Positions 32,784 through 38,283 of a DNA stretch of 38,283 nt are shown here, in pieces. The translations under genes and the position numbers were made by a program. This DNA comes from Thermodesulfobacteriota bacterium (GTDB taxonomy: Bacteria > Thermosulfidibacterota > Thermosulfidibacteria > Thermosulfidibacterales > B14-G1), in the NCBI GenBank assembly GCA_024274915.1, contig JAJSAC010000039.1, positions 1-38,283 on the forward strand, written 5' to 3'. Positions within the stretch are counted from its first letter, which is position 1. Each line of letters opens with the position of its first letter. Below the pieces are notes generated by a model. The model was not told the origin of the DNA, made no database searches, and worked only from the letters and a program-made list of their open reading frames with translations.

Positions 32784-33260
32784 TCAAACTTTATACTTAC
32801 CAAAATCCTCTGGGTCTAGACTTTCCAGCCACTCTCTTAAGAGATCGCTTTCTTGAGTGAGATCGAAGCTTTTGGCCCTGGCAATCACATCTTGTTTCAC
32901 GTAGATGGGAGCATTGGTCCTCAGGGCCAGCGCTATGGCATCGCTGGGCCTGGAATCTATCTGCACCTCCCGTCCTTCTGGGGTAGAAAGGTAGATGGTA
33001 GCGTAAAAGGTGTTCTCCACCAGGTTGTCCACGACGATCTTCTTCACCTCGGTGGAAAGGGATTCCAGGATACCTTTAATGAGGTCATGGGTCATGGGTC
33101 TAGGAGTGACCACCTTTTCCAACTCCATGGCTATGGCGTTGGCTTCGAAGAGCCCAATCCAGATGGGTAAAGCCTTCTTCTCTTCCATATCCTTTAGTAT
33201 CACAATTGGTGAATTGGTGACGGGGTCGAGAATGATCTTGGCCACCTTCATGCGAATCAT
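32784..33260 (-). CDS. Bifunctional nuclease family protein (DUF151)
   Basis: A 158-residue protein of the DUF151/BFN family, with [15 protein letters not shown] near the start, [18 protein letters not shown] (32-49), TPRPMTHDL (52-60) and [12 protein letters not shown] (about 102-113). The family is called bifunctional nuclease from plant and archaeal/bacterial members, but enzyme activity in bacteria is not well established. ATG 33260 overlaps the miaB stop and follows GGAGGTGAG, so the two are coupled. The order miaB-DUF151 is common in bacteria, which supports a functional tie to RNA modification. Confidence 0.92.
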
Positions 33261-34567
33261 AGACTCTCACCTCCTTCTGCCAGGGTGCCCAAAAGCTGGT
33301 ACATTCTGGTCTCCCCTATTCTCACTTTTTTTACGGTTCCAAGATGTTTCCTCTCTCCGGGGACAGACACAATCTTGTTGGTTCTCGTCCTTCCCTCCAA
33401 CATGCCGTCCTTCCAGTCATAGAAGAGGACATCTAGTACTTTTCCTTGGTAAGTCCTGCTCACCTCTTCCGTTATTCTGTCTTGAAGCTGGAGGAGATGG
33501 GTGAGCCTTCTGCCTTTCTCTGAAGTGGGAACATCGTCTTCCCATTGGGCAGCCCGGGTGCCCTTTCTCACCGAGTAACAAAAGGCGAAGACGCCCTCAT
33601 ACCGGACCCTTTCCACCAGATCCAGGGTGAGTTGGAAGTCTTTTTCCCTTTCTCCTGGAAAACCCACTATAAAGTCGGAGGTTAGGGCCACTTCTGGGAT
33701 GTACTCCCTTATCATGGCCACCTTCTCCAAGTATTCTTCCCTGGTGTAGCCCCTACCCATTCTCTCCAATACTGTAGTGGAGCCAGACTGGGCGGGGAGA
33801 TGGATGTACTCGCATATTTTGGGTAGAGCGGTTACGGTTCTTATCAGCTTCTCAGAGAAATCCCGGGGGTGGGAGGTGATGAAGCGGATCCAGCGGATAC
33901 CTTCCACCTCGTGGACCTTCTCTAGCAGGCCGGAGAAGTCTATCCCTTCGTCGAGGTTCTTGCCATAAGAGTTTACGTTTTGACCCAAGAGGGTCACCTC
34001 TAGATAGCCCTGATCGGCAAGTCTTTTGACTTCTTCTACAATTTCGATGCTGGGTCTGCTCACTTCTCTGCCCCTGGTGAAAGGTACTACGCAATAGGCA
34101 CAGAAGTTGTCACAGCCTTCCATCACAGTCACATAGGCGCGGTAAGGATCTTGGCGGCGAACGGGCATCTTCAAGGAGGTGATGCAAGAACCATTTAAGT
34201 GAGTCTTCACCACTCGCCGTCCCAGCTTCACCTCTTCCAACACTTGGGGCAGGGAGTAGATGTTTCTGGGGCCCACAACGAAGTCTACGAAAGGCATTTT
34301 GTCCAAAAGGTTTTTCCCTTCTTTCTGAGCTACACAGCCACAAACCCCGATGACTACTCCCATTTTCTTTAATTTTTTGAGCCGACCCAGCTCGCTGTAG
34401 ACCTTGTGCTCTGCCTTTTCCCTCACGGCACAAGTGTTCAGGATTACCAGTTGAGCTTCTTCTTCAGAGGAGACAGGGTAATAGCCCATGGTGGTCAGAA
34501 CACCCAGAAGCTTCTCCGAGTCGTGGACGTTCATTTGACAGCCGTATGTTCTGACGAAGACTTTCAT
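33257..34567 (-). CDS. miaB: tRNA-2-methylthio-N6-dimethylallyladenosine synthase
   Basis: Radical-SAM methylthiotransferase that makes ms2i6A37 in tRNA. The 436-residue protein has the N-terminal UPF0004 domain with cluster ligands C10, C46 and C78, the radical-SAM CDNFCAYC (C152, C156, C159), and a C-terminal TRAM domain (about 375-432). Two [4Fe-4S] clusters are thus predicted. [18 protein letters not shown] is the MiaB start. There is no clear Shine-Dalgarno before ATG 34567, and the gene is 62 bases after the kinase-helicase stop. It is the usual companion of DUF151. Confidence 0.96.
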
Positions 34568-34629: not shown

Positions 34630-37236
34630 CTACCCTACTCCCAGCATCTCTTTGATGAAAGGAGAGGGCCTCTCCTGGAATCTGGACTGGGGGTTTGGGT
34701 ATCGGTAGTAGGTGAGAAAGAGGACCTCTGTGGCTCGAGTGATGGCGGTGTAACACAGTCGCCGCTCCTCTTCCATCTCTTCGGGAACACCTAGGACACG
34801 GGTCAAGGGAAATTCACCCTCTACCAGCCCCACGACAAATACCACCGGGAACTCGAGCCCCTTGGCTCCGTAGACAGAAAGAAGTCTTATGCCTTCTTCT
34901 CCCCCAGCCAACCCTGCGTCTTTTAGAAATCTAATGTACCTCAGAAAGTTGGCCGTGGTAGGGCTCCTGGCCGATTCCTCGAACTCTCTGGCCTTTTTCA
35001 GGAGGGCCTCCATGGCCTCCATCCTGGCGACCAAGAGGGGGGCTTCAATCCGGAACATGAACCTGTTCAGAGCCTCTATGCCCAGCTCCAGGGCTTGGGA
35101 AGGCTTTACATTGGGATCCAAGGTATCCAAGAGTCCTTCCAGTCTCTCTAAGGCTCCTTCTCTCTTTCCTACCAATGGAGAAATCCCCTTTAAAACCCTC
35201 TTTTTTAAGATGGATCCTTTACCCCTGGCCAGGAAGGCCAAGAGATCTAAGAGGGCTTTTACCTCCTCTCGATCCAGGATGGCTCTGCCTCCCTCTTGGG
35301 TAAAGGGGATCTTCCGCTTTTTTAACACCTGCTCCATGAGCCTTCCCCTGGTCTTCACTCTGTAGAGGATGGCAAAGTCACTGTAACTGTAGCTCCTTTT
35401 CATCCTTAGGATCTCTATCATATCAGCCACGTACTCGGCCTCCTCTCTGGGGGTCTTCAGGGGCTGAATAAATAACATAGCCTTATCTTCTTCCCGGTAG
35501 GTCCAGTAAAGCTTGGGGAGCCTATCTCTGTTTTTTGTTATGAGGGAGATGGCCATCTCCCGAAACTCGGGGGGAAGTCGAAAGGTTTGGGTAAGCCCAT
35601 GGTGGACAAACCCCTGCTTCTTTACTTCTTTCAGATAGGAGGGTTGAGCTCCCCTCCACTGGTAGATGGACTGGTCGTCGTCTCCCACAAGGAAGAGACT
35701 TCCCCCCTGAGCAAGGACCCTGACCAGGGCAATCTGGGCACCGTTCAGATCCTGGACCTCGTCCACCAGAACGTGCCGGAGCCTTTCCCAGTAAAAAGAA
35801 GCCACTTCTTCCTTTTCTAAGAGCCTCAGAGCAAAGTAAACGAGGTCTTCGTAGCCCAAGGTGTTCCTTTCCCTCACCAGGCGGAGGTAGTGTTCCTCGA
35901 AGGCTTCCAGCATTTCTCTCCATTTTCCTGTGGCCTGGGAGACCATCTGAACCCAGGGGGCACCCTGGACCCTTGCCCGGCGGTAGACCTTTACGATCTC
36001 CTGGAAAGCCTTCTCTCCTCCCGCCTTCACCGCTGCTTCCTCTACAAGTCTTTCCTGCTGAGGGGGGAGAGCCAGGGTGAATTCAGTGGGCAAAGAAAAG
36101 AGATGACCGAAGCGGGAAACTATCCGTAAGGCTATTTGGTAAAAGTTACCTAGCCATATGGCTCTGTAATCTCCTCCTATAGCTTCTTCCAGGCGGGTCT
36201 CCATCTCTCTCCAGCTTCTGAAAGAGAAAGTGAAAAGGGCTATACTTTCGGGGGCTTCCCCCTCCTTTAAGAGCCGAATGGCTCTGGCCAATAGAAGTGT
36301 GGTTTTTCCTGTGCCTGGGCCTCCTGTGACCAGGATTCGAGGAGATGGATCCTCCACGGCTTGACGCTGTTCTCCAGTAAGGGGCGGCAATCCCTTGTGT
36401 TTCCCCAAGGGACGGACCACCAGAGTCAACCCCCCTTTTTCATACCCCAAAAGTTCTTCCATGAAGGCCCTGCATGAGGGATACCTCTCTTCTGGTTTCG
36501 GAGATAGGGCCCTGAGGATGGCGTGGGCCAGCTCCTGGGGCAAGAGGGAAAGGAGGTTCTCTTCCCTTAGGCCCCTGATGGTTTTCTCCCTCGCCTCCTC
36601 CAGGGTGTTGCCTAGAAAGGGATTGATCCCTGTGAGCATCTCCAGAACGACCACAGCAGCGCTCCATTGATCCGAGGCCGGTGTAAAGATTCCTTTCCAG
36701 TTTTCCGGAGCCATGTAAGCAGGGGTGCCTCCCATACTCATGCTCAGATCCTCCTGGGCCAAGCGGGAGAGGCCGAAGTCCAGGACCTTCACCCTTACCT
36801 CTGGGGTGATCATGATGTTTTCAGGCTTTATATCCCTATGGACTACTCCCCTTTCGTGGGCATGATCCAGGGCTTCCAAAAGCTGAGTGGACGTCTCCAG
36901 GGTCTTCCCTTTTTCCATTCTCCCTTTGGACAGTACTTCTCTGAGGCTTTCTCCCTTCACTACTTCAGTGACGATCAACAACCTGCCTTTTATTAAGTCT
37001 ACGGTATACAAGCGAACTATGGCGGGATGGTCCAGGCGAGCAAGATTCTGAACTTCTTCGAGATAGGGGGTGGCATCACCTTGGAATCGCACCACCTTTA
37101 CAGCCACTTCTCTCTGAGTGAGGGGATCCAGGGCCAAATACACGTCGCCAAAACGGCCCCCTCCCAACCATCCTTTTACCTCGTATCTTCCCAGGCAAGC
37201 GAAAGGCATGTCATCAGGCGGGGTGGATGGAGGCAT
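34630..37236 (-). CDS. Hanks-type Ser/Thr kinase fused to UvrD/Rep SF1A helicase
   Basis: An 868-residue fusion. The N-terminal kinase (about 18-265) has G-loop GGGRFGDV (25-32), K47 in VAVKVV, HRDIKPEN (133-140), DFG (153-155) and APE (176-178). The C-terminal helicase (about 285-868) has Walker A GGPGTGKTT (305-313), DEVQD (492-496, motif II), GDDDQSIYQWRGA (518-530, III), QTFR (550-553, IV), GAKGLEF (790-796, V) and EEERRLCYTAITRA (822-835, VI). Every catalytic element in both parts is present; motif V has Y where UvrD usually has H. No membrane helix is seen, which is unlike PknB-type kinases. The start overlaps the ARPP-1-type gene by 23 bases. Start ATG 37236 or 37209 is possible. Function unknown; a kinase-controlled DNA unwinding or repair/defence role is inference. 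Confidence 0.93.
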   Translation of the reverse strand: MPPSTPPDDMPFACLGRYEVKGWLGGGRFGDVYLALDPLTQREVAVKVVRFQGDATPYLEEVQNLARLDHPAIVRLYTVDLIKGRLLIVTEVVKGESLREVLSKGRMEKGKTLETSTQLLEALDHAHERGVVHRDIKPENIMITPEVRVKVLDFGLSRLAQEDLSMSMGGTPAYMAPENWKGIFTPASDQWSAAVVVLEMLTGINPFLGNTLEEAREKTIRGLREENLLSLLPQELAHAILRALSPKPEERYPSCRAFMEELLGYEKGGLTLVVRPLGKHKGLPPLTGEQRQAVEDPSPRILVTGGPGTGKTTLLLARAIRLLKEGEAPESIALFTFSFRSWREMETRLEEAIGGDYRAIWLGNFYQIALRIVSRFGHLFSLPTEFTLALPPQQERLVEEAAVKAGGEKAFQEIVKVYRRARVQGAPWVQMVSQATGKWREMLEAFEEHYLRLVRERNTLGYEDLVYFALRLLEKEEVASFYWERLRHVLVDEVQDLNGAQIALVRVLAQGGSLFLVGDDDQSIYQWRGAQPSYLKEVKKQGFVHHGLTQTFRLPPEFREMAISLITKNRDRLPKLYWTYREEDKAMLFIQPLKTPREEAEYVADMIEILRMKRSYSYSDFAILYRVKTRGRLMEQVLKKRKIPFTQEGGRAILDREEVKALLDLLAFLARGKGSILKKRVLKGISPLVGKREGALERLEGLLDTLDPNVKPSQALELGIEALNRFMFRIEAPLLVARMEAMEALLKKAREFEESARSPTTANFLRYIRFLKDAGLAGGEEGIRLLSVYGAKGLEFPVVFVVGLVEGEFPLTRVLGVPEEMEEERRLCYTAITRATEVLFLTYYRYPNPQSRFQERPSPFIKEMLGVG

Positions 37237-38113
37237 GGATCAGGCAGTCTCCCGTGGTAAGGGTCCTCCCTACCACCCTTGTACTTTCTAAGAGCCACTC
37301 CTCTCCTCTTCCTCTGGAAGCCAGTCTTCGCGCAGGCGTTGCCTGTAGTATCTCCTTCCACATCTCTTCTATTCTCTCCCAGGTCGTGCTCCCCTTCCTC
37401 CCCCTTATCCGCTCTTCCAAAGCGTCAAGGGCATAGCCCTTCGACAAACCAGGCCACTCTCCTGCAAAGAGAGAAGGGTTGGCCAAAATATCGCAGCACA
37501 GGAAACCTCTAGGGGTGAAAGCCATCACCCCTGTCACATTTTCTCCCGGTGTCCAGCCCCCGTAGAGATCCTCCAGGATCCCTTCCTGATAAACAAAGGA
37601 ATGGTGGAGACTTCCCGTGACCGAGGGAACTTTTAATGAGGTTAACTTCCTCTCCACTTCCCTCCACACTTCCTGCTGGTCCGCCTTTCCCTTGCCTTTG
37701 ATGGATAAGGTGATGAGGCTTCTCAAGCGAGGGTGTGCCACGTAGCCTCCGTTGAACAGAGGTTCGCTACCGGCCCACCTTCCCTCCTCTATGCAAACCA
37801 CGGGTAACTCCACCTCTTCGCTGGCAGGAATCACTACTGAAGAGATGACCATTCTGTCCTGTTGAGCCCCAAGCAACTCTTCTCCTTCTAGGACAAAGAG
37901 ATCCTCCGGGGAGGGGTTCTCCACCAGAACCTTTTCCACCGTGCCCAGCTCCTTTACGTAGGCCTTGTCCTCTTCCAGAGCCAAATGGAGGAGTTCCAGG
38001 TTATCGTCACCTGGTGAGCCTTCCAGGGGAACTATCATGAGGTTTCCCAGGAGCACGGGATCTTTGAGATCCAGGTTCTCTATGAGATCTCTCCATTTCA
38101 TTGGCTTAGTCAT
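37214..38113 (-). CDS. ARPP-1-type protein of unknown function
   Basis: A 299-residue soluble protein with no signal peptide. It shows the ARPP-1 family landmarks as I know them: FVLEGEELLGAQQDR (73-87), SSVVIPASEEVELPVVCIEEGRW (91-113), then VTGVMAFTPRGFLCCDI near 195-215. The beta-rich first half is the conserved part. The family has no proven biochemistry; I recall it in nucleotide- and ADP-ribose-related conflict contexts, but that is memory, not shown here. Its stop overlaps the kinase-helicase start by 23 bases (37214-37236), so the pair is translationally coupled. No Shine-Dalgarno is seen before ATG 38113; ATG 38101 is an alternative. Confidence 0.75.
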   Translation of the reverse strand: MTKPMKWRDLIENLDLKDPVLLGNLMIVPLEGSPGDDNLELLHLALEEDKAYVKELGTVEKVLVENPSPEDLFVLEGEELLGAQQDRMVISSVVIPASEEVELPVVCIEEGRWAGSEPLFNGGYVAHPRLRSLITLSIKGKGKADQQEVWREVERKLTSLKVPSVTGSLHHSFVYQEGILEDLYGGWTPGENVTGVMAFTPRGFLCCDILANPSLFAGEWPGLSKGYALDALEERIRGRKGSTTWERIEEMWKEILQATPARRLASRGRGEEWLLESTRVVGRTLTTGDCLIHASIHPA

Positions 38114-38206: not shown

Positions 38207-38283
38207 AGAGATGATAGCTCATAGCTCGTAGTTCATGGTTCATAGCTCATAGTTGCTATCAGCCATGAGCCATCAGCTATCAG
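38207..38283. repeat. Dispersed hairpin repeat, copy B (runs off the window)
   Basis: From about 38207 the sequence is built of AGCTCAT/AGCTCGT/AGTTCATGG/CATAGCTCATAG units and their complements (CCATGAGCC, ATCAGCTAT). Positions 38232-38281 match 19401-19450 with 4-5 differences. The core hairpin GCTCATAGTTG/CAGCCATGAGC persists with a T-G pair in place of T-A. The copy lies upstream of the ARPP-1 gene and reaches the window edge. Confidence 0.8.

Follow-up and report, generated by a model that had tools for sequence, protein, structure and literature searches.

A Ser/Thr kinase joined to a UvrD/PcrA-like helicase and its ARPP-1 partner: a possible two-protein system of bacterial chromosomes

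Introduction

The SF1A helicases PcrA, UvrD and Rep have all of their motor motifs in common with the kinase-helicase fusion analysed here. The fusion differs from them in adding an N-terminal kinase, in a shorter 2B region, in the lack of a C-terminal tail and in forming a clade of its own. With the PknB-type Hanks kinases it has in common a complete catalytic kinase domain, but it is devoid of PASTA repeats. YabT is a DNA-activated Hanks kinase that phosphorylates RecA (PMC3708118); it carries a short DNA-binding region and a membrane helix, whereas the fusion has a whole helicase in that place. PglW and the NERD-kinase proteins likewise contain a kinase within a DNA-related multidomain protein. 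However, Pfam detects no NERD or REase domain in the fusion. Among defence systems, the PADLOC models that the helicase half matches best are those of Gabija GajB. Unlike in Gabija, no GajA OLD-nuclease gene is adjacent (the neighbours are ARPP-1, MiaB and BFN), the kinase is fused, and the gene lies off the mobile elements searched.

The second protein considered here belongs to the ARPP-1 family (PF20208). In the parts of the published account on which we draw (Iyer et al. 2022, PMC9503650), ARPP is placed in predicted conflict systems with ADPr and nucleotide themes and WYL partners. Its authors predict a sugar-directed enzyme that works via a conserved Cys, a Gln being conserved too, draw an analogy with covalent crosslinking by the SRAP domain, and describe an association with HIRAN, a DNA 3′-end binder. 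The partner described below is likewise a PF20208 protein with the conserved Cys and Gln. The partners named in those parts of the account are ADP-ribosylglycohydrolase-centred operons, HIRAN, WYL and a deacetylase, and they do not mention a kinase-helicase. No ADP-ribosylglycohydrolase or rhodanese-phosphatase gene occurs among the Pfam-annotated neighbours of our loci (the window, which ends just past the ARPP gene, and a few others).

Literature searches, by phrases that can miss much, returned no account of a kinase-helicase fusion. The domains are familiar; their covalent architecture and the pairing with ARPP appear to be undescribed. Judging from sequence comparisons, we propose, with a probability of about one half, that the two genes encode a chromosomal two-protein system in which a PcrA/UvrD-like ssDNA translocase with a covalently attached Hanks kinase has a dedicated ARPP-1 as its partner.

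Results

Architecture of the fusion protein

The window is the whole 38,283-nt stretch of DNA that was analysed (genome G000). The fusion gene and its parts are located as follows.

34630..37236, minus strand: kinase-helicase fusion gene, longest ORF 868 aa, no internal stop
36448..37185, minus strand: Hanks-type Ser/Thr kinase domain, aa 18-263 (PF00069, 1e-47), with residues K47, E61, HRD 133-135, N140, DFG 153-155 and T171
36379..36447, minus strand: variable linker, aa 264-286
34645..36378, minus strand: SF1A UvrD/PcrA-like helicase, aa 287-864, with motifs Walker A 305-313, DEVQD 492-496, GDDDQSIYQWRGA, KGLEFPVVF and EERRLCYTAITR

The initial annotation had described a single protein combining a kinase with a UvrD-type helicase and free of NERD or nuclease domains, leaving the strand unstated. 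The unbroken 868-codon frame, on the minus strand, bears this out, and the motif positions then quoted (K47, HRD, DFG, Walker A and DEVQD) are correct in the 868-aa numbering. Pfam assigns PF00069, PF00580 and PF13361 to the protein, the remaining matches being overlapping related families; no NERD (at E 0.001), REase, nuclease or PASTA domain was found by the same search. The true start is probably Met10 at 37209, giving a protein of 859 aa, since the first four aligned fused homologues begin there and the position lies 4 nt past the stop codon of the ARPP gene.

The kinase half carries the Lys, HRD and DFG motifs and the kinase fold profile of Hanks-type kinases. In an alignment of 28 fused homologues, with identities down to about 30%, K47, E61, H133, D135, K137, N140, the DFG motif and T171 are invariant, while R134 is replaced by Gly in three sequences, where HRD thus reads HGD. 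Within the activation loop, S165 and S167 are Ser or Thr in 21-22 of the 28 fusions and T171 alone is invariant. The protein scores 188 bits against a cut-off of 450 for the PknB/Stk1 PASTA kinases, and a helicase follows its kinase domain.

All SF1A motifs (I, Ia and II-VI) are present in the helicase half, which matches PF00580 at 2.5e-49 (aa 287-540) and PF13361 at 2.8e-36 (best stretch 738-845). Invariant among the 28 fusions are Gly305, Gly308, Gly310, K311, D492, Q495, D496, G518, D519, Q522 and R626, and likewise K792, G793, E795, E823-R826 and R834. The PcrA structure 1pjr aligns with this half in two blocks, the first covering 392 residues. Between the blocks, in a part of 2B, the fusion has about 47 residues compared to 83 in PcrA, and the PcrA-type C-terminal tail is absent. 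None of the NCBIfam equivalog cut-offs for pcrA, uvrD and rep was reached by the helicase half (298 bits against 911 for pcrA). A stand-alone UvrD/PcrA, in a 727-aa frame, is also encoded in G000.

The linker differs in sequence among all homologues shown and, as it varies in both length and sequence, no conserved coupling element is visible between kinase and helicase. For the pair G000 and G001, the kinase has a dN/dS of 0.09 and the helicase one of 0.06, dS being close to saturation; these low values indicate that both halves are under purifying selection. AlphaFold predictions on single sequences were uninformative (pLDDT of 35 for the fusion and 31 for ARPP).

The ARPP-1 partner

Immediately upstream of the fusion gene lies a constant partner that the initial annotation overlooked.

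37214..38113, minus strand: ARPP-1 gene (PF20208, 1.8e-58), 299 aa, directly upstream of the fusion
37210..37213, minus strand: 4-nt gap between the ARPP stop codon and the likely fusion start
37610..37612, minus strand: ARPP Ser168, within the paired-clade signature S-x-T-x-S-x-H

The short gap suggests translational coupling of the two genes. The ARPP-1 profile is matched with 198.7 bits against a cut-off of 27, and the conserved residues are Gln85, Arg87, Cys107, Glu109, Arg112 and Trp113, including the Gln and the Cys of the family. No convincing relative of ARPP was found in the PDB (best E 0.31).

ARPP is adjacent to and upstream of the fusion on the same strand in G001, G006, G007, G008 and G022. 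In the phylum of G133 it is directly upstream in many genomes, and several families have it at another place in the genome; the order is reversed in G506 and G507, where ARPP directly follows the fusion. In a tree of 143 ARPP sequences, one clade (support 0.926) is represented by a single ARPP in each of 66 of the 69 fusion genomes, and this pairing holds even where the genes are unlinked. ARPP was absent by search in the other three (G402, G433 and G435), with two faint fragments in G435. Conversely, only three members of the paired clade come from genomes where no fusion was detected (G406, G432 and G477). These are fragmented assemblies with congeneric fusion carriers, and in G477 a helicase C-terminal fragment resembling the end of the fusion stands at the start of a contig. 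Within the phylum of G133, both genes occur in 60 genomes, one of them alone in 3 and 3, and neither in 81 (Fisher p 1.4e-33, a descriptive value, as the clade was chosen post hoc and the species are non-independent, with no correction for phylogeny). The pairwise distances of fusion and ARPP are correlated (0.72; 0 of 2000 permutations), while their trees are incompletely congruent. Finally, the close relatives G002-G005 of the window genome have neither fusion nor ARPP nor any PF00069 kinase, a joint absence which implies that gain or loss affected both genes at once.

Ser168 is found in 68 of 68 paired ARPPs but in 6 of 71 others, and His170 in 65 of 69 against 6 of 71. Ser168 is thus a candidate contact or phospho-acceptor, with the caveat that any clade is expected to show some clade-specific residues. 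Many fusion genomes of the G133 phylum also encode a second, longer ARPP of about 340 aa (for example at L202 and L203); these proteins fall outside the paired clade.

Distribution and origin of the fusion

The homologue search found the fusion in 69 genomes from three phyla; the carriers are mostly uncultured bacteria, in three groups, and many of the genomes are drafts. Identities of fused homologues to the window protein are 76% (G001), 50% (G007), 49% (G008), 46% (G006, cut by a contig end), 36% (G022) and 32% (G133). A frame break missed between the halves, which the initial annotation had named as fatal to its reading, and an assembly artefact are both rejected, because the same fused frame recurs in the 69 genomes of these three phyla.

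The distribution is patchy within the window's own phylum. In that of G133 the fusion occurs in 63 of 147 genomes (about 43%), a count of matches that span the kinase and some or all of the helicase; a few are cut by contig ends and one, in G407, has a flagged TGA inside the match. No further phylum with the fusion was found in two domain-wide samples with overlapping genomes, the second of 385; the distribution is therefore narrow overall and dense in one phylum. The architecture, at first called unusual, is not confined to the window's genome but is common in this other phylum, although the literature searched contains no report of it. A scan of genome contigs by kinase patterns gave 80 loci, none of them a fusion, and a helicase-only match in G066 was discarded as a separate helicase.

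The 28 kinase halves fall in one clade (support 0.979), apart from 107 other kinases, and the 28 helicase halves in another (support 0.951), apart from 33 stand-alone helicases. That both halves are monophyletic points to one ancient fusion event. In the fusion tree, the window's phylum groups with G506, a member of the G133 phylum, which suggests that the fusion was transferred between phyla.

Genomic context and mobile elements

Downstream of the fusion, after a gap of 62 nt, lies a gene found in the same order in G001.

33257..34567, minus strand: MiaB-type methylthiotransferase

It is probably a housekeeping neighbour outside the system. 'MiaB' was largely set aside as a recurrent component, because L245, among the four cluster members, resembles a different radical SAM protein in sequence. 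The synteny of the fusion is stable within families and its neighbours are mostly housekeeping genes. DNA-linked neighbours occur in some genomes, namely a DEDDh exonuclease-WYL fusion upstream of ARPP in G006-G008, dnaN and dnaA in one genus and an HhH-GPD glycosylase in G526, and they favour the DNA-handling system proposed here; repair-type neighbours, however, differ between families, and the remaining ones are for the most part unrelated. In one genus (L181, L231, L232 and L233) the order of genes around the fusion is conserved, with a rhomboid gene and the convergent dnaN and dnaA as its neighbours.

The fusion was absent from 72,556 plasmid and 50,697 phage records, searched for a single place covering 80% of the protein. 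The 17 kinase matches on IMG/VR contigs included no single-gene fusion of this type. ARPP had no match in IMG/VR and one among plasmids. Two IMG/VR contigs (L258:4022-6302 and L262:3084-5679) carry a kinase gene followed on the same strand by a separate, short UvrD-like SF1 helicase gene; in L262 a third gene with no Pfam match lies beside the pair.

These data bear on an anti-phage function, in which the helicase would sense foreign or phage DNA, the kinase would act as effector or alarm, and ARPP would counter phage-driven ADP-ribosylation. The patchy occurrence in the window's phylum, the separate adjacent kinase and SF1 helicase genes of the two viral contigs and the predicted conflict systems in which ARPP has been described (PMC9503650, in the parts drawn on above) are in its favour. 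So are PADLOC matches of the helicase half to GajB and of the kinase half to PD-T4-6 and MAD6; however, such matches are expected of any UvrD or Hanks kinase, and they were rejected as evidence of membership because generic domains of these kinds score there. Moreover, the plasmids, phages and viral contigs searched hold no fusion, synteny with housekeeping genes is stable, a large share of one sampled phylum carries the gene, and no nuclease or toxin partner recurs. We therefore regard defence as unlikely, and the phage response put forward in the initial annotation has lost ground to genome maintenance, which fits the lack of plasmid and phage records and the stable synteny better, the former being its main basis.

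Proposed function

By whole-genome search, the fusion is the only PF00069 kinase in G000, G006, G007, G008 and G133. A search for PP2C_2 phosphatases detected none in G000, G007, G008, G133, G022 or G506, several of these genomes being incomplete. A sole Hanks kinase with no PP2C phosphatase found makes a dedicated substrate likely, and the first candidates would be the fusion's own helicase half and ARPP. Self- or partner-phosphorylation, suggested from the start, has thus become more plausible.

A kinase merely co-expressed with a non-essential helicase, the two joined by chance and not regulating each other, is quite improbable. It would accord with the variable linker and with the stand-alone UvrD/PcrA of G000. 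However, both halves have long been kept intact with invariant catalytic residues, no split versions were noticed among the carriers, and several of these have no other Hanks kinase.

In the two-protein system favoured here, the helicase half would load on exposed ssDNA at stalled forks or repair gaps, as its SF1A family and intact motifs suggest. Loading, or dimerisation on DNA, may then activate the adjoining kinase, by analogy with YabT. The kinase would phosphorylate its own helicase half, ARPP or both, and so time translocation or the recruitment of ARPP; this step is suggested by the sole Hanks kinase of several carriers, the lack of a detected PP2C and the fixed partner. The motor would expose a sugar-containing substrate, possibly an abasic site or an ADP-ribosylated one, on which ARPP would act with its conserved Cys and Gln, in keeping with the prediction published for the family (PMC9503650, in the parts cited). 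A more specific and doubtful proposal is that the fusion is, in principle, a bacterial counterpart of DNA-activated kinases. Its motor would signal that it has met damaged ssDNA through phosphorylation of itself and, at the Ser168 signature, of ARPP; the latter would then act on an abasic or ADP-ribosylated sugar.

If true, bacteria that have no further Hanks kinase would thereby possess a DNA-damage signalling unit complete in itself. Covalent coupling of kinase and translocase would convert DNA contact directly into phosphorylation, for which bacterial precedents such as YabT are few. Through the near one-to-one pairing, the unexplained ARPP-1 family also acquires a definite partner and a few residues on which to focus.

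The idea that the motor runs on RNA or R-loops, with ARPP processing ADP-ribose or another nucleotide ligand and the kinase passing the signal on, is hardly probable: it draws on the ADPr and nucleotide themes and the WYL partners of the family (PMC9503650, same parts) and on the exonuclease-WYL fusion before ARPP in G006-G008, but WYL is limited to one family, the helicase aligns best with the DNA helicases PcrA and UvrD, and no ADP-ribosylglycohydrolase, Macro or Nudix gene is present in the annotated loci. The upstream gene in question encodes a DEDDh exonuclease-WYL fusion and directly precedes ARPP at L034:7918-8802, and also at L035 and L036.

Finally, the end of the window's contig carries imperfect repeats.

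38209-38282: 21-nt direct repeats and a 25-nt inverted repeat (76%)
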